From positions 310,001-374,000 of the forward strand of contig PABP01000021.1 in assembly GCA_002699585.1 (NCBI GenBank): a stretch of 64,000 nucleotides of DNA. Direction: 5' to 3'. Shown here piece by piece: positions 52,773-62,358 of the stretch; the first letter of the stretch is position 1, and every line of letters starts with the position of its first letter. A model generated the notes under the pieces. That model had not been told where the DNA came from. It saw only the letters and a list, made by a program, of their open reading frames with translations, and did no database searches. A program made the position numbers and the translations under genes. Source of the DNA: Anaerolineaceae bacterium. Lineage in GTDB: Bacteria > Chloroflexota > Anaerolineae > Aggregatilineales > Phototrophicaceae.

Positions 52773-54476
52773 TTATACTTGCTTGAGCTTCGCTGGTGCT
52801 CGCCGGAGGACAATAGCCAGCAAGTCGCTTAATTCTCGCATACGTAAGGCAAATGCCGCAACCAGGAATGCCAGCCCACCCAGCACAACCTGGACACCAA
52901 TCTGAGCAATTGTGAAAATCGTCCCGCGATCACCGAGAATTTGTGTCCATAAGATCTCGATGACGATCACGACCAGCGCCATAACTAGGCTGGCGATGAG
53001 TGTTTTGAGTACGGCCATAGCCAGGGTGTTTTCCTGGATGCCATGCCAGCGACGACGCAAAATCCACAGCAGGAACAGCACTTCAAACATCACACCCAGC
53101 GAATTGGCCAGCGCTAAACCACTGACATTGCCTTGTTCCAGATAGAAACCGTCGAGTGGCCACAAGTTGATCGCTGTATTGAGTGCAGAAAATTGTGCCA
53201 CATAATTCACATTGCTGAGCACATACGACAGCACCAGATTGATGGCTGCGCCACCCAGTGCCGCCCATAAGGGTGTCAGCGTATCTTTATCGGCATAAAA
53301 GCTGCGTGCTACCACTTCCAGCGCTGAATGCACGATCAGGCCCAGCGTAAAGGCCGTTAGTGTACTGTATACCAATGCTGATGCCGATGCATCGAACGCG
53401 CCACGCTCTAGCAAGCTGATAATGGGCCGTCCGACGACGATTAACCCGACTGCCGACGGAATGCTGCTAATCAGGATGAAGCGTAATGCACCTGACATCA
53501 ATGCACGCTTGCCAGATTCATCACCGATCTCGCTCAACGCTGCCAGCGACGGAAAAACCACTGTCCCAATCGCTGTGCCGATGAGCGTCTGCGGGATTTG
53601 CATTAAGCGCCAACCCCAATCAAGCGCAGATACCGAACCAGTCCCTAGCCGCGATGCGATGTTGTTCATGACCAGGAAATTCAGACTGAAGACGCCCAGA
53701 CCAGCCACGCGCGGCAGCATCAGCCGGATGACGCGCCACAGCACCGGGTCTTTCAGATCGAGATACGGACGCCAGCGTGCGCGGTAATAGATCAGCCCAG
53801 GAACCTGTATACCGAAGTGCATGGCAGCACCCAACACCGCACCCAGGGAAATGCCCACCACGCCCATACTCGGTAGCAAGAAGATAACGCCAAACAAAAT
53901 GCCGACATCGAACATGATCGGAGCCAGGGCTGGCAGCAGGAAGTGATTGTGGCTTTGCAGAATGCCCATGCTGATGCCGCTGACCGAAAAGATCAGCGTA
54001 CTAATCAGCAGGATACGCATGAGTTGCGCTGTTTGCTCGACTTGCTCCAAAGTGAAGCCCGGAGCAACGACATGCTCGACCATCCATGGAGCTACCACAA
54101 AAACCACGGCACTAACGATAAACGTCACCGAGAAAATGAAGTTGATGACATTGGTAGCGATGCGCCACGCGCCCGGTTTATCATCCCGCGCCAGGTAGCT
54201 GCTGAAAATCGGGATGAAGGCATGGGCCAGCGCTCCGCCGGAAATCAACGTGAAGATGAGTTCCGGGATGCGGTTGGCCGTGACGAATGAATCCCACTCG
54301 GAGCCAACCCCAAACGCCTGTGCGATAATCACCGTCTGCGCTAGGCTGATGACCTTCGCAACCGCAAAGGCAACCATCACGATCACAGTAGACCGTGCGA
54401 TTTGCCGATTGCGTTGGTTGGCTTCATCTTGGTTTTCTTGTGGCTCTTGAATCGGTTCTGTGATGGATTCAGTCAC
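52773..54476 (-). CDS. murJ: Lipid II flippase MurJ (MviN)
   Basis: A 567-residue MOP-superfamily transporter with about 14 membrane helices. It flips lipid-linked peptidoglycan precursors to the outer face. Signatures: VAKVISLAQTVIIAQAFGVG at the first helix, the cavity-facing Arg/Asp residues of helix 1-2 (SEWDSFVTANRIPEL), and AFIPIFSSYL. The N-terminal cytoplasmic tail is acidic and Gln-rich (EPIQEPQENQDEANQ). The MBL hydrolase gene starts 33 bases after its stop, and the C39-like peptidase gene lies 37 bases upstream. Confidence 0.93.
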   Translation of the reverse strand: MTESITEPIQEPQENQDEANQRNRQIARSTVIVMVAFAVAKVISLAQTVIIAQAFGVGSEWDSFVTANRIPELIFTLISGGALAHAFIPIFSSYLARDDKPGAWRIATNVINFIFSVTFIVSAVVFVVAPWMVEHVVAPGFTLEQVEQTAQLMRILLISTLIFSVSGISMGILQSHNHFLLPALAPIMFDVGILFGVIFLLPSMGVVGISLGAVLGAAMHFGIQVPGLIYYRARWRPYLDLKDPVLWRVIRLMLPRVAGLGVFSLNFLVMNNIASRLGTGSVSALDWGWRLMQIPQTLIGTAIGTVVFPSLAALSEIGDESGKRALMSGALRFILISSIPSAVGLIVVGRPIISLLERGAFDASASALVYSTLTAFTLGLIVHSALEVVARSFYADKDTLTPLWAALGGAAINLVLSYVLSNVNYVAQFSALNTAINLWPLDGFYLEQGNVSGLALANSLGVMFEVLFLLWILRRRWHGIQENTLAMAVLKTLIASLVMALVVIVIEILWTQILGDRGTIFTIAQIGVQVVLGGLAFLVAAFALRMRELSDLLAIVLRRAPAKLKQV

Positions 54477-54513: not shown

Positions 54514-56028
54514 CTAAAGTCGGTCGAGAGCTGTGCGGGCAGCTTCATAATTGTAGTTGTAGTTCAGTGCTTGGTTATATTGTGACCGCGCCTGTGCGAT
54601 CTCGCCCTGGCCTTCATACACGCGACCACGCCAATAGTAAGCTTCTTCAAGCTCCTCTGCTTGGCTCAGGATCGTCTGTGCATGAACCAAAACTTCTTCA
54701 TAACGGCCGGATTCAAAGAAGGCGACGAAGGGGCCAAACTGGTACCAGAACATGCGCCAGGGCAGGTCATAGCGACGTGCCTGTGCATAGGCATTGGCAG
54801 CTTCTTCATACCGACCAAGCTCTACCAGCGATGTGCCCATATTGAACCAGGCGAAACCATCATTTGGGTTGGCATTTGCTTCTTCCTGGGCAGTTGCAAA
54901 GGCGATTTCAGCAGCTTCGGTTTCGTCTGCTAGCGGACCCAGGATTTCCATCACACGGGCTTCTTCTTGCGGCGGATAGATGACGATGAAAAGCCGGTTA
55001 AACGCACGCCAATCTTCATCGACTGCGCTGAAGCTTTCATAAACGCCCACGCTGTCTTCACCCGTGCCCATAAAGCTATCATAGGCGAAGAAAAGCTGGC
55101 TGGTATCCTCATAAGCTACCAAGGCCTGATAATGTCCAAGCCAGTCGTTAGCCTCAAACTGCATGCCCCTCTCAATGATGACCGGGTACTCATTGGCCAG
55201 CAATGCACGCAACGTATTGATACTCCCACCATAGCGCATGACAGCTCGTAAATCCGTGTATTCGTTGACGAAGCCTACGAGTTCCTGAGGGCTGACGTTT
55301 TTGTCCTCACGGTTGGGCTTGAGTCGCTCTTTGGCGTAGATTTGGTCGTTTTGCCAGCCATAAAATGTGAGTGCGGTCGTCACAGTTGCGGGGCCACAAT
55401 TATTCCACTCCTGGCGTTCCCAGCGCATCCCATACAGGCGTGATGAATTCGGTAGCAGCGACAGAGTTTGCGATACGGATGTATTCACGCTCTGGTTGGT
55501 CGCCCCTGTAGATGTCTGGCTGCTGGTGTCGGCAGGTGTTGGGGTTGGCGGTACAGCGGTAAATGTTGCCGTAGGCGGGACAGTCGTCGGTGTTGCGACC
55601 GCTTCTTCGAGAGTCGGCTCGATGGCAGGCGCTTCTGTACTGGCGAGAGTTGGCTCGGCAGTAGGTGCTGTTTCTTCACCATTTCCAGTGAGTGCACTGG
55701 CAGTCGGTGTATCAAATGCCAGCGGCTGGTTCAACAAATCGAGTGCTGCATCGTTATCTGCAGCATCCGGCTCGATGGTTGGCAATACACCCCCTTGAGG
55801 GGTGGGGGGCAAAAAACTGCGCATAAACGGCGCAATACCGATTACACGCTGCTGCTGGCTCGGCTGCAAAACACTTGTGAAGATGACAATTGCTGCAATG
55901 ATGCCTAAAATAACCAGCACAAAAAACCCTAGTACCCCGTAAAATAGGATACGTGGTGGAGCTTGCAAATCGCTCCGATAGCCGCTAACACGTTGCATGC
56001 GCGGTTCAGTGTCGTTTTGGAATGTCAT
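54514..56028 (-). CDS. Membrane-anchored C39-like cysteine peptidase with TPR repeats
   Basis: A 504-residue protein. One membrane anchor (about 26-52) is followed by a Thr/Pro/Glu-rich linker (about 75-185). A C39_2 papain-like domain has Cys in WNNCGPATVTTALTFYGW, His in WLGHYQALVAYED and Asp in LFFAYDSFMG. A C-terminal helical part has tetratricopeptide repeats (FAWFNMGTSLVELGRYEEAA; YYWRGRVYEGQGEIAQARSQ). It would act outside the membrane as a protease or binding protein. ATG 56028 has AGGA upstream. It is divergent from the flippase-like gene at 56222. Confidence 0.85.
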   Translation of the reverse strand: MTFQNDTEPRMQRVSGYRSDLQAPPRILFYGVLGFFVLVILGIIAAIVIFTSVLQPSQQQRVIGIAPFMRSFLPPTPQGGVLPTIEPDAADNDAALDLLNQPLAFDTPTASALTGNGEETAPTAEPTLASTEAPAIEPTLEEAVATPTTVPPTATFTAVPPTPTPADTSSQTSTGATNQSVNTSVSQTLSLLPNSSRLYGMRWERQEWNNCGPATVTTALTFYGWQNDQIYAKERLKPNREDKNVSPQELVGFVNEYTDLRAVMRYGGSINTLRALLANEYPVIIERGMQFEANDWLGHYQALVAYEDTSQLFFAYDSFMGTGEDSVGVYESFSAVDEDWRAFNRLFIVIYPPQEEARVMEILGPLADETEAAEIAFATAQEEANANPNDGFAWFNMGTSLVELGRYEEAANAYAQARRYDLPWRMFWYQFGPFVAFFESGRYEEVLVHAQTILSQAEELEEAYYWRGRVYEGQGEIAQARSQYNQALNYNYNYEAARTALDRL

Positions 56029-56221
56029 GAGCGTAATCCTGCTCCTATGCAAATCGGCGTCAGTATAGCGTATTCGCCGGATTGTGTTTACCCTGTACGT
56101 GTTTACATCAAACTTATTAACAAATGCTGTAGTATAGACAATTCAAGCCCGAATTGGGCGGATGTATCTCTACGACCAACCGACGAACAACCCATGATCT
56201 GTCTCGCTGAAAGGCTATACA

Positions 56222-57395: not shown

Positions 57396-58844
57396 TTATT
57401 GTGGTGGGGTCGCTTCTGTCAGGTTGTCGATGGTTGCCATGATGGTTTGCTCAACCACATGATTGAGCGCGTCGATGCTGGCATCGGGTTCCAGCGCAAT
57501 CACAATCGACGCACTTTGCTGTGAGGGTAAGCGAACAAAGCCCACAAACCAGCGTACCTGACCGTCGCCCGTATGCGAAATCGCATATTGTCCGCCAATT
57601 TCGACGCCTTCTGGTCGAGGCATATCCGCTAATGGTGAGACAGCAAATGCCGACTTCATAGCGTTAAGCAGGGCATTGGCTGTGTCTTCTGTGAAAAATG
57701 GAATCGGATTGCGATCAACCGTATAGGGCTGCCAGTCATCAGCTTGGGGCGGTTTGGTTGCAAGTATCGTATGGGGCTGGCGTGTACTGCCATTTGATAA
57801 AATAGCTGCGACCATCGTCGAAAGCGTCAACGGGGATACGGTCATGTTGCCCTGGCCCAGCACCTCTTCCTGGAAGTTTGCCTCTGGTTCATCAGTGACA
57901 GATGGCGTTGGTGTCGTGTCTTCAGTAGGTGTGGGGGTTGCAAATGCTTGTAACAGCGTTGTCTGTCGGTCCCCGATACGCTCCAGGTAACTATAAACGG
58001 TATCTTCACCGAGTTGTTCAGCGATAGTCAAGAAGGGTTGTGGGCAGCCGTAACTGTAGCTCTGTATGAGCGTAATCGGGCCTTCAGGTGGCGCCAAAAC
58101 ACAGTTCAACGCGATGTCGTCCAGGTCAACTGGGTCGCTGGCCCCGCTGAACTGGCGTGTGGTGTCCAGGCTGGCCAATGACGCAGCCCCCAACAACAAC
58201 GTCTGCATGGTGCTGCCCGGTTGATATTGTCCCTGTAAGGCACGATTGAAGAAGGGTTTGTCCGGTGCCTCAACCAGCGTTTCCCAGTCGGTTGCCAGGG
58301 TATTCGGATCGTATGTTGGCAAAGAAACCAGGCTGAGCAAGCCGCCGCTCGGTACACTGACGACCAGTGCGGCACCAGCTTGGTCGCCCATCGCTTCCAC
58401 AATCGCCTGCTGAATGCTGAGGTCGACCGTGAGTTGGACATCGGTGCCAACACGAGGGCGATGCAGCAGACTCTCGTTTACGAAAGTGCTCCAATCATCC
58501 GGCAAAGCTTGACCACTCAGGATCGTATCATACGTTGATTCCAGGCCACCGACGCCATAGCGTAAGCTGTAATAGCCGAGCACGCTGTTCATAGCAGATT
58601 GCGTATAATCACGCTCGGCGACGCCACTTTCTGTTTCAGTAGTTTCTGCGAGTAGCGTCAGATCCCGATCATAGAATCTGCCGCGCAAAATAGCGGATGT
58701 GGCCTCGACTAAGCGTGGGTTATCTTCTCGCCCCAAAATGGAGTCTGGTCCGAAGACGGCCCAATATCCGGCGGCAATGGCCACCAGGAAAAATGCGACC
58801 AACAAGCCAAAGACTGTCGTCTGGATTTCTTTAGCAAATGGCAT
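57396..58844 (-). CDS. Penicillin-binding protein homologue with degenerate transpeptidase motifs
   Basis: A 482-residue class B PBP-like protein: one N-terminal membrane helix (about 10-30), LRGRFYDRDLTLLAE, YYSLRYGVGGLES and NRALQGQYQPGSTM, all PbpA/FtsI landmarks. The three catalytic motifs are altered: SxxK reads STMQ (Gln codon 58203-58205), SxN reads SYG, and KTG reads HTG (His codon 57573-57575). It is therefore probably inactive as a transpeptidase. A Thr/Pro insert (about residues 308-325) interrupts the domain. ATG 58844 follows the rodA stop by one base (TGATATG), the usual SEDS-bPBP pairing. Confidence 0.88.
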   Translation of the reverse strand: MPFAKEIQTTVFGLLVAFFLVAIAAGYWAVFGPDSILGREDNPRLVEATSAILRGRFYDRDLTLLAETTETESGVAERDYTQSAMNSVLGYYSLRYGVGGLESTYDTILSGQALPDDWSTFVNESLLHRPRVGTDVQLTVDLSIQQAIVEAMGDQAGAALVVSVPSGGLLSLVSLPTYDPNTLATDWETLVEAPDKPFFNRALQGQYQPGSTMQTLLLGAASLASLDTTRQFSGASDPVDLDDIALNCVLAPPEGPITLIQSYSYGCPQPFLTIAEQLGEDTVYSYLERIGDRQTTLLQAFATPTPTEDTTPTPSVTDEPEANFQEEVLGQGNMTVSPLTLSTMVAAILSNGSTRQPHTILATKPPQADDWQPYTVDRNPIPFFTEDTANALLNAMKSAFAVSPLADMPRPEGVEIGGQYAISHTGDGQVRWFVGFVRLPSQQSASIVIALEPDASIDALNHVVEQTIMATIDNLTEATPPQ

Positions 58845-58845
58845 A

Positions 58846-60153
58846 TCAGGCGCGCCTCGACGATAACCGCAAGAGAAGTCCAATCATGATGAAGCTCACC
58901 AGCAGTGAACTCCCGCCATAGCTGACGAAAGGCAGCGTGACGCCTGTCAGCGGCAGTAATTTGAGGATGCCCATCATAATCAGCAGGCTTTGCACCCCGA
59001 TCAGCAGGCTGATGCCAATCGCCAGCAATGTATAGAAAGGGCGGGTCTGGTTACGCAAGCCGATATGTGCTGCCCGTACGACGATAATGGCAATCACCAC
59101 GACGATTGCGAGTACGCCCAGCAGACCCCATTCCTCGGCGATAGCAGCCAGTACAAAATCGGAATGCACCACCGGAATATAGCCCGGTGATCCTTGGCCG
59201 ATGCCTTGACCAAAGATACCCCCTGCGCTGAAAGCCATCAGGCTTTGCACGATCTGGTAAGCGCGCCCATCCGCATCTGGCCAGGGATTCAGCCATATAT
59301 CAATTCTGAGCTGCACCAGATCGATCACGACATAAGCCAGGATGCCTGCCAACCCTAACAAGATGCCACCACCGAGCATGATTTCCAGCCGCGTGCTGGC
59401 AATATAGAGCAGTGTTAAAAAGACGATGAAGAAGAGTGCTGCCGTACCCAGGTCCCGCTGCCAGATCAACATGATGATACATAGCCCCCACATCAGCAGG
59501 ATGGGGCCTAAGATGCGCATCGGGAAGGCTGCGCTAGGTTCGTCTCCGCGTTTATCCAGGCGGCGCATGATGGGGTATTGTTCGCCCAGGTAGCTCGCCA
59601 GGAACGCAACCAGAATGATCTTGAGCGCTTCCGAAGGCTGGAAATACACGCTATCGAAAACCAGCGGAATTTCTAGCCATAATTCTGGCCCAAACCCGGA
59701 TGGATTGCGCCCCAGAATGATGGTTGCAACCAGTAAAGTCAGCCCACCAAAAAACAGCGTATAGCGATATTGACGCAGCCAGTAAAGCGGCTGTCGGAAG
59801 ATAGCCGTTACCAATAGCGCGCCTACAGCCACCAGCAGCCAGATAATCTGCCGATCCGCAAAAATGGGTGATAATCGCTCGATAACCAGCACACTCCAGC
59901 CACCCAAAAACATTACCAGTGGGAACAGGAGGATGTCTCGGTCCGGCAAAAATCGATTCAGCAGCACATGGCCGCCTATGGCACATCCAGCCCAGATCAG
60001 CAACTGAATGCCGATTGATGGCAGCGCATAGTCCTGAATGGCGAGCGCCGCATAGTTAATCGCCAGGAACATGAACGCCAACACCAGCAGCCAGCGTTCT
60101 TTGCGCTGCCTGCTGTGGTCGTATCCGAGGGATAGCGGTGTGGTTGACGTCAT
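58846..60153 (-). CDS. rodA: SEDS-family peptidoglycan glycosyltransferase (RodA/FtsW)
   Basis: A 435-residue protein with ten to twelve membrane helices. Conserved SEDS features include QSLMAFSAGGIFGQGIGQGS and the loop VVHSDFVLAAIAEEWGLLG, which carries the Asp essential for polymerisation; GVTLPFVSYGGSSLLVSF is near the end. It appears catalytically complete. SEDS proteins extend glycan strands from lipid II and need a class B PBP partner, encoded immediately downstream. Position in fhaA-fhaB-x-rodA-pbp suggests RodA rather than FtsW. It lies 12 bases after mtnP. Confidence 0.93.
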   Translation of the reverse strand: MTSTTPLSLGYDHSRQRKERWLLVLAFMFLAINYAALAIQDYALPSIGIQLLIWAGCAIGGHVLLNRFLPDRDILLFPLVMFLGGWSVLVIERLSPIFADRQIIWLLVAVGALLVTAIFRQPLYWLRQYRYTLFFGGLTLLVATIILGRNPSGFGPELWLEIPLVFDSVYFQPSEALKIILVAFLASYLGEQYPIMRRLDKRGDEPSAAFPMRILGPILLMWGLCIIMLIWQRDLGTAALFFIVFLTLLYIASTRLEIMLGGGILLGLAGILAYVVIDLVQLRIDIWLNPWPDADGRAYQIVQSLMAFSAGGIFGQGIGQGSPGYIPVVHSDFVLAAIAEEWGLLGVLAIVVVIAIIVVRAAHIGLRNQTRPFYTLLAIGISLLIGVQSLLIMMGILKLLPLTGVTLPFVSYGGSSLLVSFIMIGLLLRLSSRRA

Positions 60154-60165
60154 ATTTTGGGTCGC

Positions 60166-61050
60166 TTACAGGCCCAGGGCGCGGGCAACAATCGGATGCA
60201 GTTTAGCGATGATGTCAGCAGGCATTTTGTCCGGTGCCGTCATGATTGCGCCGTCTAGCGCTGAATGCGAGGGGGTCACCATATTTTCATCGAGTATTTC
60301 GACAGCTTTGGCCAGTGCTTGCTGCGCTAGAGCGATATTCTTCTGGAAGGTTGCTGTGACCATTTCGACTGTAACGGGTTCCTCGTGCCACACATCATAA
60401 TCGGTGATATGCGCCATCGTCGCATACGCCATCTCGGCTTCGCGCGCCAGGAACGCCTCCGGCGCAGTCGTCATGCCAATGATGTCACAGCCCCAATGTT
60501 GGAATATTTTGCTCTCCGCGCGGGTCGCAAAGCGGGGCCCATCTTCAATCAGGAAGGTGCCTGCGGTGTGTACTGTGCCTTCGACAGCCTCAATGGCATC
60601 TGCCATGATGCTGCGCAGTACATCGTCAAAAGGTTGTGCGACACTGATGTGGGCGACAATGCCTTCTTCAAAAAACGAACGATCCCGTGTGCCAATCGTG
60701 TAATCAAATATCTGGTCAGGCACGACGATGTGCCCTGGTGCATAGTCTTCACGTAAGCTGCCACACGCATTCACTGACAAACAGAAGCGTACCCCTAGCT
60801 TTTTGAGTGCGTAAATGTTCGCGCGTTGGGGGATCGCCCCCGGTGATTTGACATGACCGACCCCATGACGCGGCAAAAATGCGACTCGCTTGCCGCGCAA
60901 GGTACCAACAGTAACGGCAGCGCTGGGTGCACCGAAAGGTGTATCGACCTGATAGGTTTCTTTATCAGTGATTTCTGGCATGTTGTAGAGACCGGACCCG
61001 CCAATGACAGCGATCTTGATGGGCGCTTCCGGTAAATGATAGTCAGTCAT
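60166..61050 (-). CDS. mtnP: S-methyl-5'-thioadenosine phosphorylase
   Basis: A 294-residue purine nucleoside phosphorylase-fold enzyme that converts MTA and phosphate to adenine and methylthioribose-1-phosphate. IAVIGGSGLYNMPEI, FLPRHGVGH (phosphate site) and IIGMTTAPEAFLAREAEMAY are MTAP signatures. Together with the MtaD-like amidohydrolase at 28571 it suggests active MTA salvage. Its position between fhaB and rodA, where Actinobacteria have the phosphatase gene pstP, is unexpected. It has its own promoter candidate inside the fhaB tail. Confidence 0.94.
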   Translation of the reverse strand: MTDYHLPEAPIKIAVIGGSGLYNMPEITDKETYQVDTPFGAPSAAVTVGTLRGKRVAFLPRHGVGHVKSPGAIPQRANIYALKKLGVRFCLSVNACGSLREDYAPGHIVVPDQIFDYTIGTRDRSFFEEGIVAHISVAQPFDDVLRSIMADAIEAVEGTVHTAGTFLIEDGPRFATRAESKIFQHWGCDIIGMTTAPEAFLAREAEMAYATMAHITDYDVWHEEPVTVEMVTATFQKNIALAQQALAKAVEILDENMVTPSHSALDGAIMTAPDKMPADIIAKLHPIVARALGL

Positions 61051-61099: not shown

Positions 61100-61127
61100 A
61101 TTGTACACGCCGTGCTTGATTACTCAA
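61100..61127 (-). promoter_or_regulatory. Candidate internal promoter before mtnP
   Basis: TTGAGT (61122-61127), a 16-base spacer and TACAAT (61100-61105) overlap the fhaB stop codon. It could transcribe mtnP-rodA-pbp separately from the fha genes. Confidence 0.5.
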
Positions 61128-61569
61128 GTTCAAGGCGGAAGCCATAATTGCCAATGCCGATCACATCCCCGTGCGTGATGATGATGGGGCCATCGATACG
61201 CTCTCCGTTGAGCGAGGTACCGTTACGGCTGTTGCGGTCTTCCAACCACCATTGATTGTTGCGCAGCGCGATAAGCGCATGCTCGCTGCTGGCGAAGTCA
61301 TCAGCGATGACAACCGCGTTGGTAGGCGAACGTCCCATGCTGGTGAGGGGCAGCAAGGCATAGGATTGGCCCGTTTCCAGCAGATGCCCCTCGATGGTGG
61401 TTAGGGAAATGAGGCGGCCATACTGGCGTCGATAGGCCTGTGTCTGGTCAATCGTGCGCCGATAATCCCTCAGCAGCACGATGAAGACCGCGCCGACAAA
61501 GGCCAGCAGAGCTATTGCAGAAGCAATTCGCAGCACAAAGAGGATGACATCAAGTTCCATTGGCGTCAC
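61120..61569 (-). CDS. fhaB: Membrane-anchored FHA-domain protein (FhaB-like)
   Basis: A 149-residue protein: one membrane helix (about 8-31), a basic linker, then an FHA domain (about 72-147) with the phosphothreonine-binding residues in MGRSPTNAVVIADD, SSEHALIAL and DRNSRNGTSLNG. This matches FhaB/FipA of Mycobacterium, which links Ser/Thr kinase signalling to cell division and wall growth. It overlaps the fhaA stop by one base. No Ser/Thr kinase or phosphatase gene is in the window. Confidence 0.9.
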   Translation of the reverse strand: MTPMELDVILFVLRIASAIALLAFVGAVFIVLLRDYRRTIDQTQAYRRQYGRLISLTTIEGHLLETGQSYALLPLTSMGRSPTNAVVIADDFASSEHALIALRNNQWWLEDRNSRNGTSLNGERIDGPIIITHGDVIGIGNYGFRLELE

Positions 61570-62351
61570 TAGTCATCAATTGGATCAAGTTGGGTAGTTG
61601 TTTTAGTGGCTCGGAAGCCCGGATTTTCATCCACGAGATACAGTAGCTTGCTCTGGCCAATCTGGATGACATCTCCCGGTTGCAAGCGATGTTCGCTGAC
61701 TTTGACCTGATTGACATACGTCCCACCGCGGCTGTTGACATCGAACAGGGTGTATACGCCGAATCGCAAACGGATCTGCACATGATGGCGTGATGCATAT
61801 TGGTCGTCAAGCACGACATCGTTATCGCTGCCGCGCCCGATGTTGACAATCGATTGGTCCAGAGAAATAGTCCGTTGCCCGTTGATGAGCATCTGAGGGT
61901 TGCGTTGGGGTGGGGCCGCTGATTGTGGCTGCACCGGTTGCATGGCCATAGTGCTTTTCATCTGTTTCGCAGAGTGCCGCGCCATGATGATGGCCTGGGA
62001 TGCATCCTCTATCGCGGCATCTGGGCGCATTTCGACATTCAGATCAGTCAGGATGCGATACCCCATATCTGTTGCCAATTCAACCAGATAGCGAGTGAGT
62101 TCAGTCGCAAATTCTGGTCGTTTAGACTGCAAGATCTGGTATGTCTTAGGGCTTAAGCGGATTTCAAAATAATCCGGCGCGATAGGTTGCGTGGCTCGGT
62201 CAACAGGTAAGCGAAGATTGTCTTCCATACTCCTGACAAGTTGCAGCGCAATATCATGGGCGCTGACGGACTTGCGGAAGAATGACGAAAACACGCCTTC
62301 TACCAGGCGTTCCAATCGGGATTCGAGTACGACGATTCTGTTATCGTTCAT
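61569..62351 (-). CDS. fhaA: FhaA-like protein (DUF3662 plus FHA domain)
   Basis: A 260-residue cytoplasmic protein. The N-terminal DUF3662 domain (RLERLVEGVFSSFFRKSVSA; YFEIRLSPKTYQIL) is diagnostic of FhaA. A Gln/Pro-rich linker leads to an FHA domain with NIGRGSDNDVVLDD, SRHHVQI and NSRGGTYVNQ. In Mycobacterium FhaA binds the phosphorylated pseudokinase domain of MviN (MurJ) and restrains peptidoglycan synthesis. The start at 62351 is chosen because a strong promoter ends seven bases upstream, leaving no room for the longer frame. First gene of the fhaA-fhaB-mtnP-rodA-pbp cluster. Confidence 0.92.
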   Translation of the reverse strand: MNDNRIVVLESRLERLVEGVFSSFFRKSVSAHDIALQLVRSMEDNLRLPVDRATQPIAPDYFEIRLSPKTYQILQSKRPEFATELTRYLVELATDMGYRILTDLNVEMRPDAAIEDASQAIIMARHSAKQMKSTMAMQPVQPQSAAPPQRNPQMLINGQRTISLDQSIVNIGRGSDNDVVLDDQYASRHHVQIRLRFGVYTLFDVNSRGGTYVNQVKVSEHRLQPGDVIQIGQSKLLYLVDENPGFRATKTTTQLDPIDD

Positions 62352-62358
62352 GTGAGGC

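Follow-up and report, generated by a model that had tools for sequence, protein, structure and literature searches.

The pbpA-like gene at positions 57396-58844 of the window, the whole 64,000-nucleotide stretch analysed here, encodes a protein that belongs, by descent and fold, to the PbpA-type class B PBPs and has lost all three transpeptidase motifs. We consider it probable that this protein is a pseudo-transpeptidase, kept as a membrane-anchored partner of a third SEDS polymerase, or as its activator, while other enzymes make the cross-links. Below, loci lacking all three motifs are called dead and loci keeping them intact. The gene and the parts of its product are located as follows:

57396..58844, minus strand: pbpA-like gene for a class B PBP without any of the three transpeptidase motifs (482 aa, P0001)
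58752..58817, minus strand: N-terminal transmembrane helix, approximately residues 10-31, its membrane span estimated by inspecting the sequence
58488..58685, minus strand: pedestal, the PBP_dimer_2 match, residues 54-119, where constraint is kept in the dead clade
57426..58436, minus strand: transpeptidase-fold domain, catalytically empty, approximately residues 137-473, from Pfam, the model and the fold match
58203..58214, minus strand: SxxK position, reading STMQ, residues 211-214, Lys lost, from the alignments
58041..58049, minus strand: SxN position, reading GCP, residues 266-268, from the alignments
57582..57590, minus strand: KTG position, reading QYA, residues 419-421, from the alignments

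The open reading frame is uninterrupted and begins with ATG, one spacer base after the stop codon of the SEDS gene (rodA). Pfam recognised the transpeptidase domain PF00905 (E 6.7e-18, 65.4 bits, cut-off 22.1) and the PbpA dimerisation domain PBP_dimer_2, PF21922 (E 1.3e-07, 32.2 bits, cut-off 27). The earlier note had described the fold landmarks around the motifs as intact, and the predicted structure agrees, showing a transpeptidase/PbpA fold (pLDDT 83.2, pTM 0.82) in which residues 3-31 form a helix. The best Foldseek match of this model was Mycobacterium tuberculosis PbpA (3upn_A, E 1.1e-24), and a second fold comparison gave 3lo7_A, tied with related entries, with a Z score of 35.9 and an rmsd of 3.1 over 381 residues.

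The motif register was set by alignment with 31 relatives and then by aligning the profile of that alignment with M. tuberculosis PbpA. Both alignments placed S211-T-M-Q214 at the SxxK site, as the earlier note had read it. Its other two readings were out of register and were ruled out by the same alignments: the SYG that it had taken for the SxN motif occupies residues 264-266, the site itself being G266-C267-P268, and the HTG taken for the KTG motif occupies residues 424-426, the site being Q419-Y420-A421. The claim that all three motifs are lost thus survives in the corrected register (STMQ/GCP/QYA). A pattern search for S..K and K[T/S]G across all 482 residues was empty, and no intact SxxK or KTG lies elsewhere in the chain.

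The earlier note had also coupled the gene to an apparently complete rodA, and the neighbouring SEDS gene bears this out. It is listed here with three further genes of the same strand, which lie at higher coordinates:

58846..60153, minus strand: SEDS polymerase of the RodA/FtsW family (PF01098, E 1.2e-71), one spacer base from the PBP start
60166..61050, minus strand: phosphorylase-family gene (PNP_UDP_1), between fhaB and the SEDS gene, common in relatives
61120..61569, minus strand: FhaB-like FHA-domain gene, from Pfam
61569..62354, minus strand: FhaA-like gene with FhaA_N and FHA domains, from Pfam

The fourth extracellular loop (ECL4) of the SEDS protein reads HSD, with the putative catalytic Asp kept; its place matches D297 in the H-T-D of FtsW, as given in PMC8765783. 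The same Asp was present in every one of the 97 SEDS sequences that could be read in the non-intact class set; this set includes L054 and L125, and one further sequence in it was unreadable. Among 46 loci with both 5-kb flanks, drawn from the best 80 named fused relatives described below, FhaA and FhaB matches were found in 43, in all 43 on at least two separate ORFs, and a phosphorylase lay beside the fused genes in 37. The other window neighbours looked for, the genes for MurJ, the C39-TPR protein, an LPG-synthase-like protein and PpiC, were found in none of these 46 loci; therefore, the synteny rests on fhaA, fhaB and the phosphorylase only. In M. tuberculosis, pbpA is likewise linked to fhaA, fhaB and rodA. 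In the window, a gene for MurJ, the lipid II flippase, lies close downstream of the SEDS-PBP pair (52773-54476), and a protein with a C39-like peptidase domain and TPR repeats is encoded between the two (54514-56052).

Whether the motif changes are fixed among relatives, a check proposed with the original observation, can be answered for the loci read. All three motifs were absent in 35 of the 35 loci examined from the window's family; a same-genus relative with 49% identity reads NTLN/GCP/QIA. Of 298 genomes of the class, 280 had a match at 1e-8, often to another PBP, in a search that scored at most five candidates per genome. We read 118 class loci, the window included, of which 30 came from the genome search and 88 were fetched, picked among the matches listed. 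All three motifs were lost in 100 of these 118 loci and kept in 15; since loci resembling other PBPs were left out, 100/118 describes chosen loci and is not a share of class genomes. The remaining three are L130, a separate intact SEDS-fused paralogue, the locally decayed L054 and the fragment L125. In L054 (G006:C189:37459-41339), which belongs to an intact lineage, a low-complexity stretch rich in Glu, Leu and Gly replaces the centre and KTG is kept, which is either local decay or an assembly fault. The loss in the window protein is not a matter of chance: it is shared by 35 of 35 family loci, and seven other proteins of the same genome keep their motifs.

Across the phylum, a search of 151 genomes found the motifs kept in 29 of the 30 best loci. 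Two of these 29, L213 and L218, come from class genomes that the counts above already include; the one remaining locus, L233, is dead and joined in one ORF to a SEDS protein. A scan of named genomes found 144 relatives, the best 80 of which are titled Chloroflexi, Anaerolineae, Anaerolineales and similar. SxN and KTG were absent in all of these best 80 and SxxK in 79 of them, the scan profile having been built from fused loci only and the best 80 partly overlapping the class genome set. L198 has S..K at the aligned position, without SxN or KTG.

A tree of 142 rows, which included relatives from other parts of the phylum, was built with a mixture model after removal of the motif columns. In it, 99 dead class rows group as a single clade that contains no intact row (SH-aLRT 96). 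L125, L213, L218, L054, L104, L115 and four own-genome paralogues were dropped from this second tree. In the first tree, rooted on one distant long-branch paralogue, the support of the dead clade was 83. L233 was placed outside the main dead clade; judging from this placement, motif loss probably happened at least twice.

The dead PBP is encoded in the same ORF as a SEDS protein in 62 of the 100 dead loci and next to a SEDS gene on the same strand in 34; no SEDS gene was detected in the fetched stretch of the other four. None of the 15 intact loci is fused, 12 have an adjacent SEDS gene and three have none in the fetched stretch. The best 80 of the 144 named relatives were all fused, as a sample selected by a profile of fused loci. 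The fusion state requires nine changes in the first tree (at least six by the starred branches) and 11 in the second, which suggests that SEDS-PBP fusion arose repeatedly or was in part undone. Intact SEDS-PBP fusions also exist. L130 (G284:C49:3148-7022) keeps SVFK/SDN/KTG, in a genome that also carries the dead fused L097, and L230 is an intact fusion from the phylum search.

Purifying selection acts on the dead PBP genes. Across 14 closely related dead pairs, some rows being used in more than one pair, dN/dS ranged from 0.09 to 0.21 for the N-terminal part and from 0.08 to 0.30 for the transpeptidase part; in the latter, dS was saturated (2.58) for the pair L114-L116. The transpeptidase part had a lower dN/dS than the N-terminal part in five of five intact pairs and a higher one in nine of the 14 dead pairs; a sixth "intact" pair, L026-L054, which joins an intact and a decayed copy, was left out of this comparison.

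In the dead PBPs the catalytic region has become less constrained, and constraint now lies mainly on the membrane-proximal pedestal. Mean pairwise identity was computed for 15 intact and 98 dead rows, and the dead values are given here for unfused and then for fused rows. It was 0.42 in the intact rows versus 0.37 and 0.37 in the membrane part, 0.46 versus 0.43 and 0.42 in the pedestal, 0.57 versus 0.42 and 0.46 in the first part of the transpeptidase domain, 0.44 versus 0.23 and 0.22 in its middle, and 0.53 versus 0.29 and 0.30 in its C-terminal part. Position by position, conservation seen at 27 sites in 42 intact rows is gone from the 100 dead rows, and 26 of these sites lie at residue 211 or beyond; the two sets were defined by the motifs, and the conservation of the motif columns is itself circular. 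Conversely, 28 of the 33 positions that are kept or newly conserved in the dead rows lie before residue 211. Among the kept positions are R54, G55, R78, Y80, G90, E102, L109 and G111; conservation is new at R39, D41 and P43, among others, and as an Arg where the window protein has S110. The segment that holds SxN is deleted in 44 of the 100 dead rows, 33 of these 44 being fused, and the median length of the PbpA part is 406.5 aa in fused dead, 463 aa in unfused dead and 478 aa in intact proteins.

The source genome (6.7 Mb, listed completeness 96.17) was searched for another intact class B PBP, as the earlier note had advised. PF00905 gave nine matches in eight proteins, the window protein included, and the other seven, all motif-bearing, keep SxxK, SxN and KTG, with SxD for SxN in L004. 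Three SEDS genes are present, the window's included; the second lies approximately 3 kb from L001, labelled FtsI-like here, and the third approximately 4 kb from L004, labelled PBP2-like here. Six YkuD matches indicate that other possible cross-linking enzymes are also present.

Forty-eight genomes were surveyed for SEDS proteins and for PF03717, the PBP_dimer family of other class B PBPs: 31 with a dead PBP, 14 with an intact one and three without a strong match. At least two PF03717 matches were found in all 48, including all 31 dead-PBP genomes. The dead-PBP genomes carry three SEDS matches in 29 cases and two in the other two (G251 and G073), where the SEDS protein beside the dead PBP may be the sole one besides an FtsW-like one. 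The intact-PBP genomes carry three in 12 cases and four in two, some of them partial. The three genomes without a strong match carry two each; thus, in this sample, the third SEDS gene accompanies a PbpA-type PBP, dead or alive. We rejected the idea that motif loss is a simple result of extra SEDS-PBP pairs, because most of the surveyed genomes, intact and dead alike, have three SEDS matches and two or more PF03717 matches; the loss of catalysis therefore needs more than spare transpeptidases as its explanation.

The earlier note had suggested a pseudo-enzyme that persists because it activates the SEDS polymerase. Its first half is strongly supported, by the clade-wide loss, the purifying selection, the predicted fold and the conserved SEDS Asp. 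The activator half we infer as the best reading, one that fits the linkage, the repeated fusion and the constraint on the pedestal. In this mechanism, acyl-enzyme chemistry would have been lost from a PbpA-type class B PBP, whose transmembrane helix and pedestal would still hold the SEDS protein and switch on the polymerase. The emptied transpeptidase domain may stay as a scaffold or regulatory lobe, and the new glycan would be cross-linked in trans by other PBPs or by L,D-transpeptidases. Complex formation, activation and cross-linking by other enzymes are all steps that we infer; bearing on the complex are the repeated natural fusion in relatives and one confident model of such a fusion. This natural fusion, L191 (850 aa), was predicted as one chain with a pLDDT of 90.0 and a pTM of 0.83, its Foldseek matches, among those listed, being PBP entries only. 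If the helix alone were to suffice, as in E. coli, it would be unclear why selection acts on the 400-residue outer domain.

Other readings share part of this evidence. That the gene is a decaying relic under no selection is scarcely credible: the three lost motifs, the divergent middle region and the 12 of 61 family genomes without a match at 1e-30 (49 have one), from which the PBP gene may be dispensable, point that way, but dN/dS stays far below 1 in every one of the 14 dead pairs, the loss spans a 99-row clade and 35 of 35 family loci with repeated in-frame SEDS fusion, and the truly decayed-looking L054, its centre a low-complexity stretch, looks different. It is very improbable, too, that catalysis has passed to other residues, the candidates being Ser211, Cys267 and the His that often replaces the KTG Lys. 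The Ser is kept in the window protein, a Cys lies beside the SxN site in 55 of the 100 dead rows and a His occupies the KTG Lys position in 38. Nevertheless, a Ser stands at the catalytic site in only 13 of these 100 rows, the NTLN/GCP/QIA of the same-genus relative departs from the window protein, and the Cys is also found in 18 of 42 intact rows and falls in the segment deleted from 44 dead rows. A conserved Cys/His replacement site was rejected, as no replacement residue set is common to the dead clade.

A sensor or an inhibitor, both non-catalytic, fits the same data as an activator. As a sensor, the emptied cavity would bind stem peptide, glycan or another wall ligand and gate the SEDS protein, acting more as a receptor than as a constitutive activator. 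The outer domain still under purifying selection in the dead pairs, the fold kept in the predicted model and the fhaA and fhaB neighbours, which may mark a regulated locus, speak for this role, which we hold to be unlikely, given that a single shared ligand site is made doubtful by the absence of the SxN segment from 44 of 100 dead loci and by the low middle and C-terminal conservation. More improbable is an inhibitor that keeps the SEDS polymerase inactive pending a releasing signal. A dedicated inhibitor predicts tight linkage and fusion equally well, and the opening of RodA-PBP2 is described as the activating step in PMC10257715, which implies a closed, less active state; against it, PBP2 stimulates its SEDS partner in the accounts of PMC6207328 and PMC10449877, and the present data give the inhibitor no direct support.

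Taking the pseudo-transpeptidase partner of SEDS as the preferred reading, we would tentatively extend it, at somewhat less than even confidence, to a large clade of a single Chloroflexota class, whose relatives carry the titles Anaerolineales and Anaerolineae. Its SEDS polymerases, many of them in one piece, would have a former transpeptidase that is now only a built-in allosteric subunit; they would make glycan without a cross-linker of their own, and the cross-links, or a different polymer, would come from separate enzymes. The question of the class B PBP as an enzyme or as an allosteric subunit of SEDS has been approached with engineered mutants in the papers cited here, and evolution appears to have split these roles across a large clade, with probably a second instance in another part of the phylum (L233). 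The natural dead fusions are one-chain polymerases that, judged by their sequences, should lack transpeptidase activity. They offer a direct test of which parts activate SEDS proteins, and of the need to couple polymerisation and cross-linking. For annotation, a Pfam assignment as PBP does not imply a beta-lactam target.

M. tuberculosis PbpA (PDB 3un7, 3lo7 and 3upn) resembles the window protein in fold and, by name, in the PBP_dimer_2 family, but it has SxxK, SCN and KTG, of which the window protein has none, and it forms acyl-enzymes with beta-lactams, according to the titles of the PDB entries. The E. coli RodA-PBP2 pair likewise joins a SEDS protein to a class B PBP; PBP2, however, is an active transpeptidase, whereas the window-type PBP is dead and in many relatives naturally fused. 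For the E. coli pair, PMC6207328 describes an engineered RodA-PBP2 fusion as functional and changes in the PBP2 pedestal as activating RodA, and PMC10449877 describes stimulation of RodA by the PBP2 transmembrane helix alone. Engineered inactivation has been reported in PMC12713402: in Clostridioides difficile, SpoVD S311A still allows asymmetric division through its SEDS partner SpoVE, and a catalytically inactive PBP2b mutant of Bacillus subtilis still supports division. These are laboratory point mutants, whereas the loss described here is natural, complete and clade-wide, and was followed by fusion and deletions. According to PMC10449877, which cites the Rhodococcus RHA1 genome paper, SEDS and PBP also occur naturally joined in a single ORF; PMC10449877 does not state, where it mentions these fusions, that the PBP part is inactive, whereas 62 of the 100 dead class loci here join SEDS to a dead PBP. 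In the open PMC literature, covered mostly by listing, we found no naturally inactive class B PBP paired with a SEDS protein. Engineered inactive class B PBPs and SEDS-PBP pairs are thus known, and what appears new is a natural, clade-wide pseudo-transpeptidase tied to SEDS.
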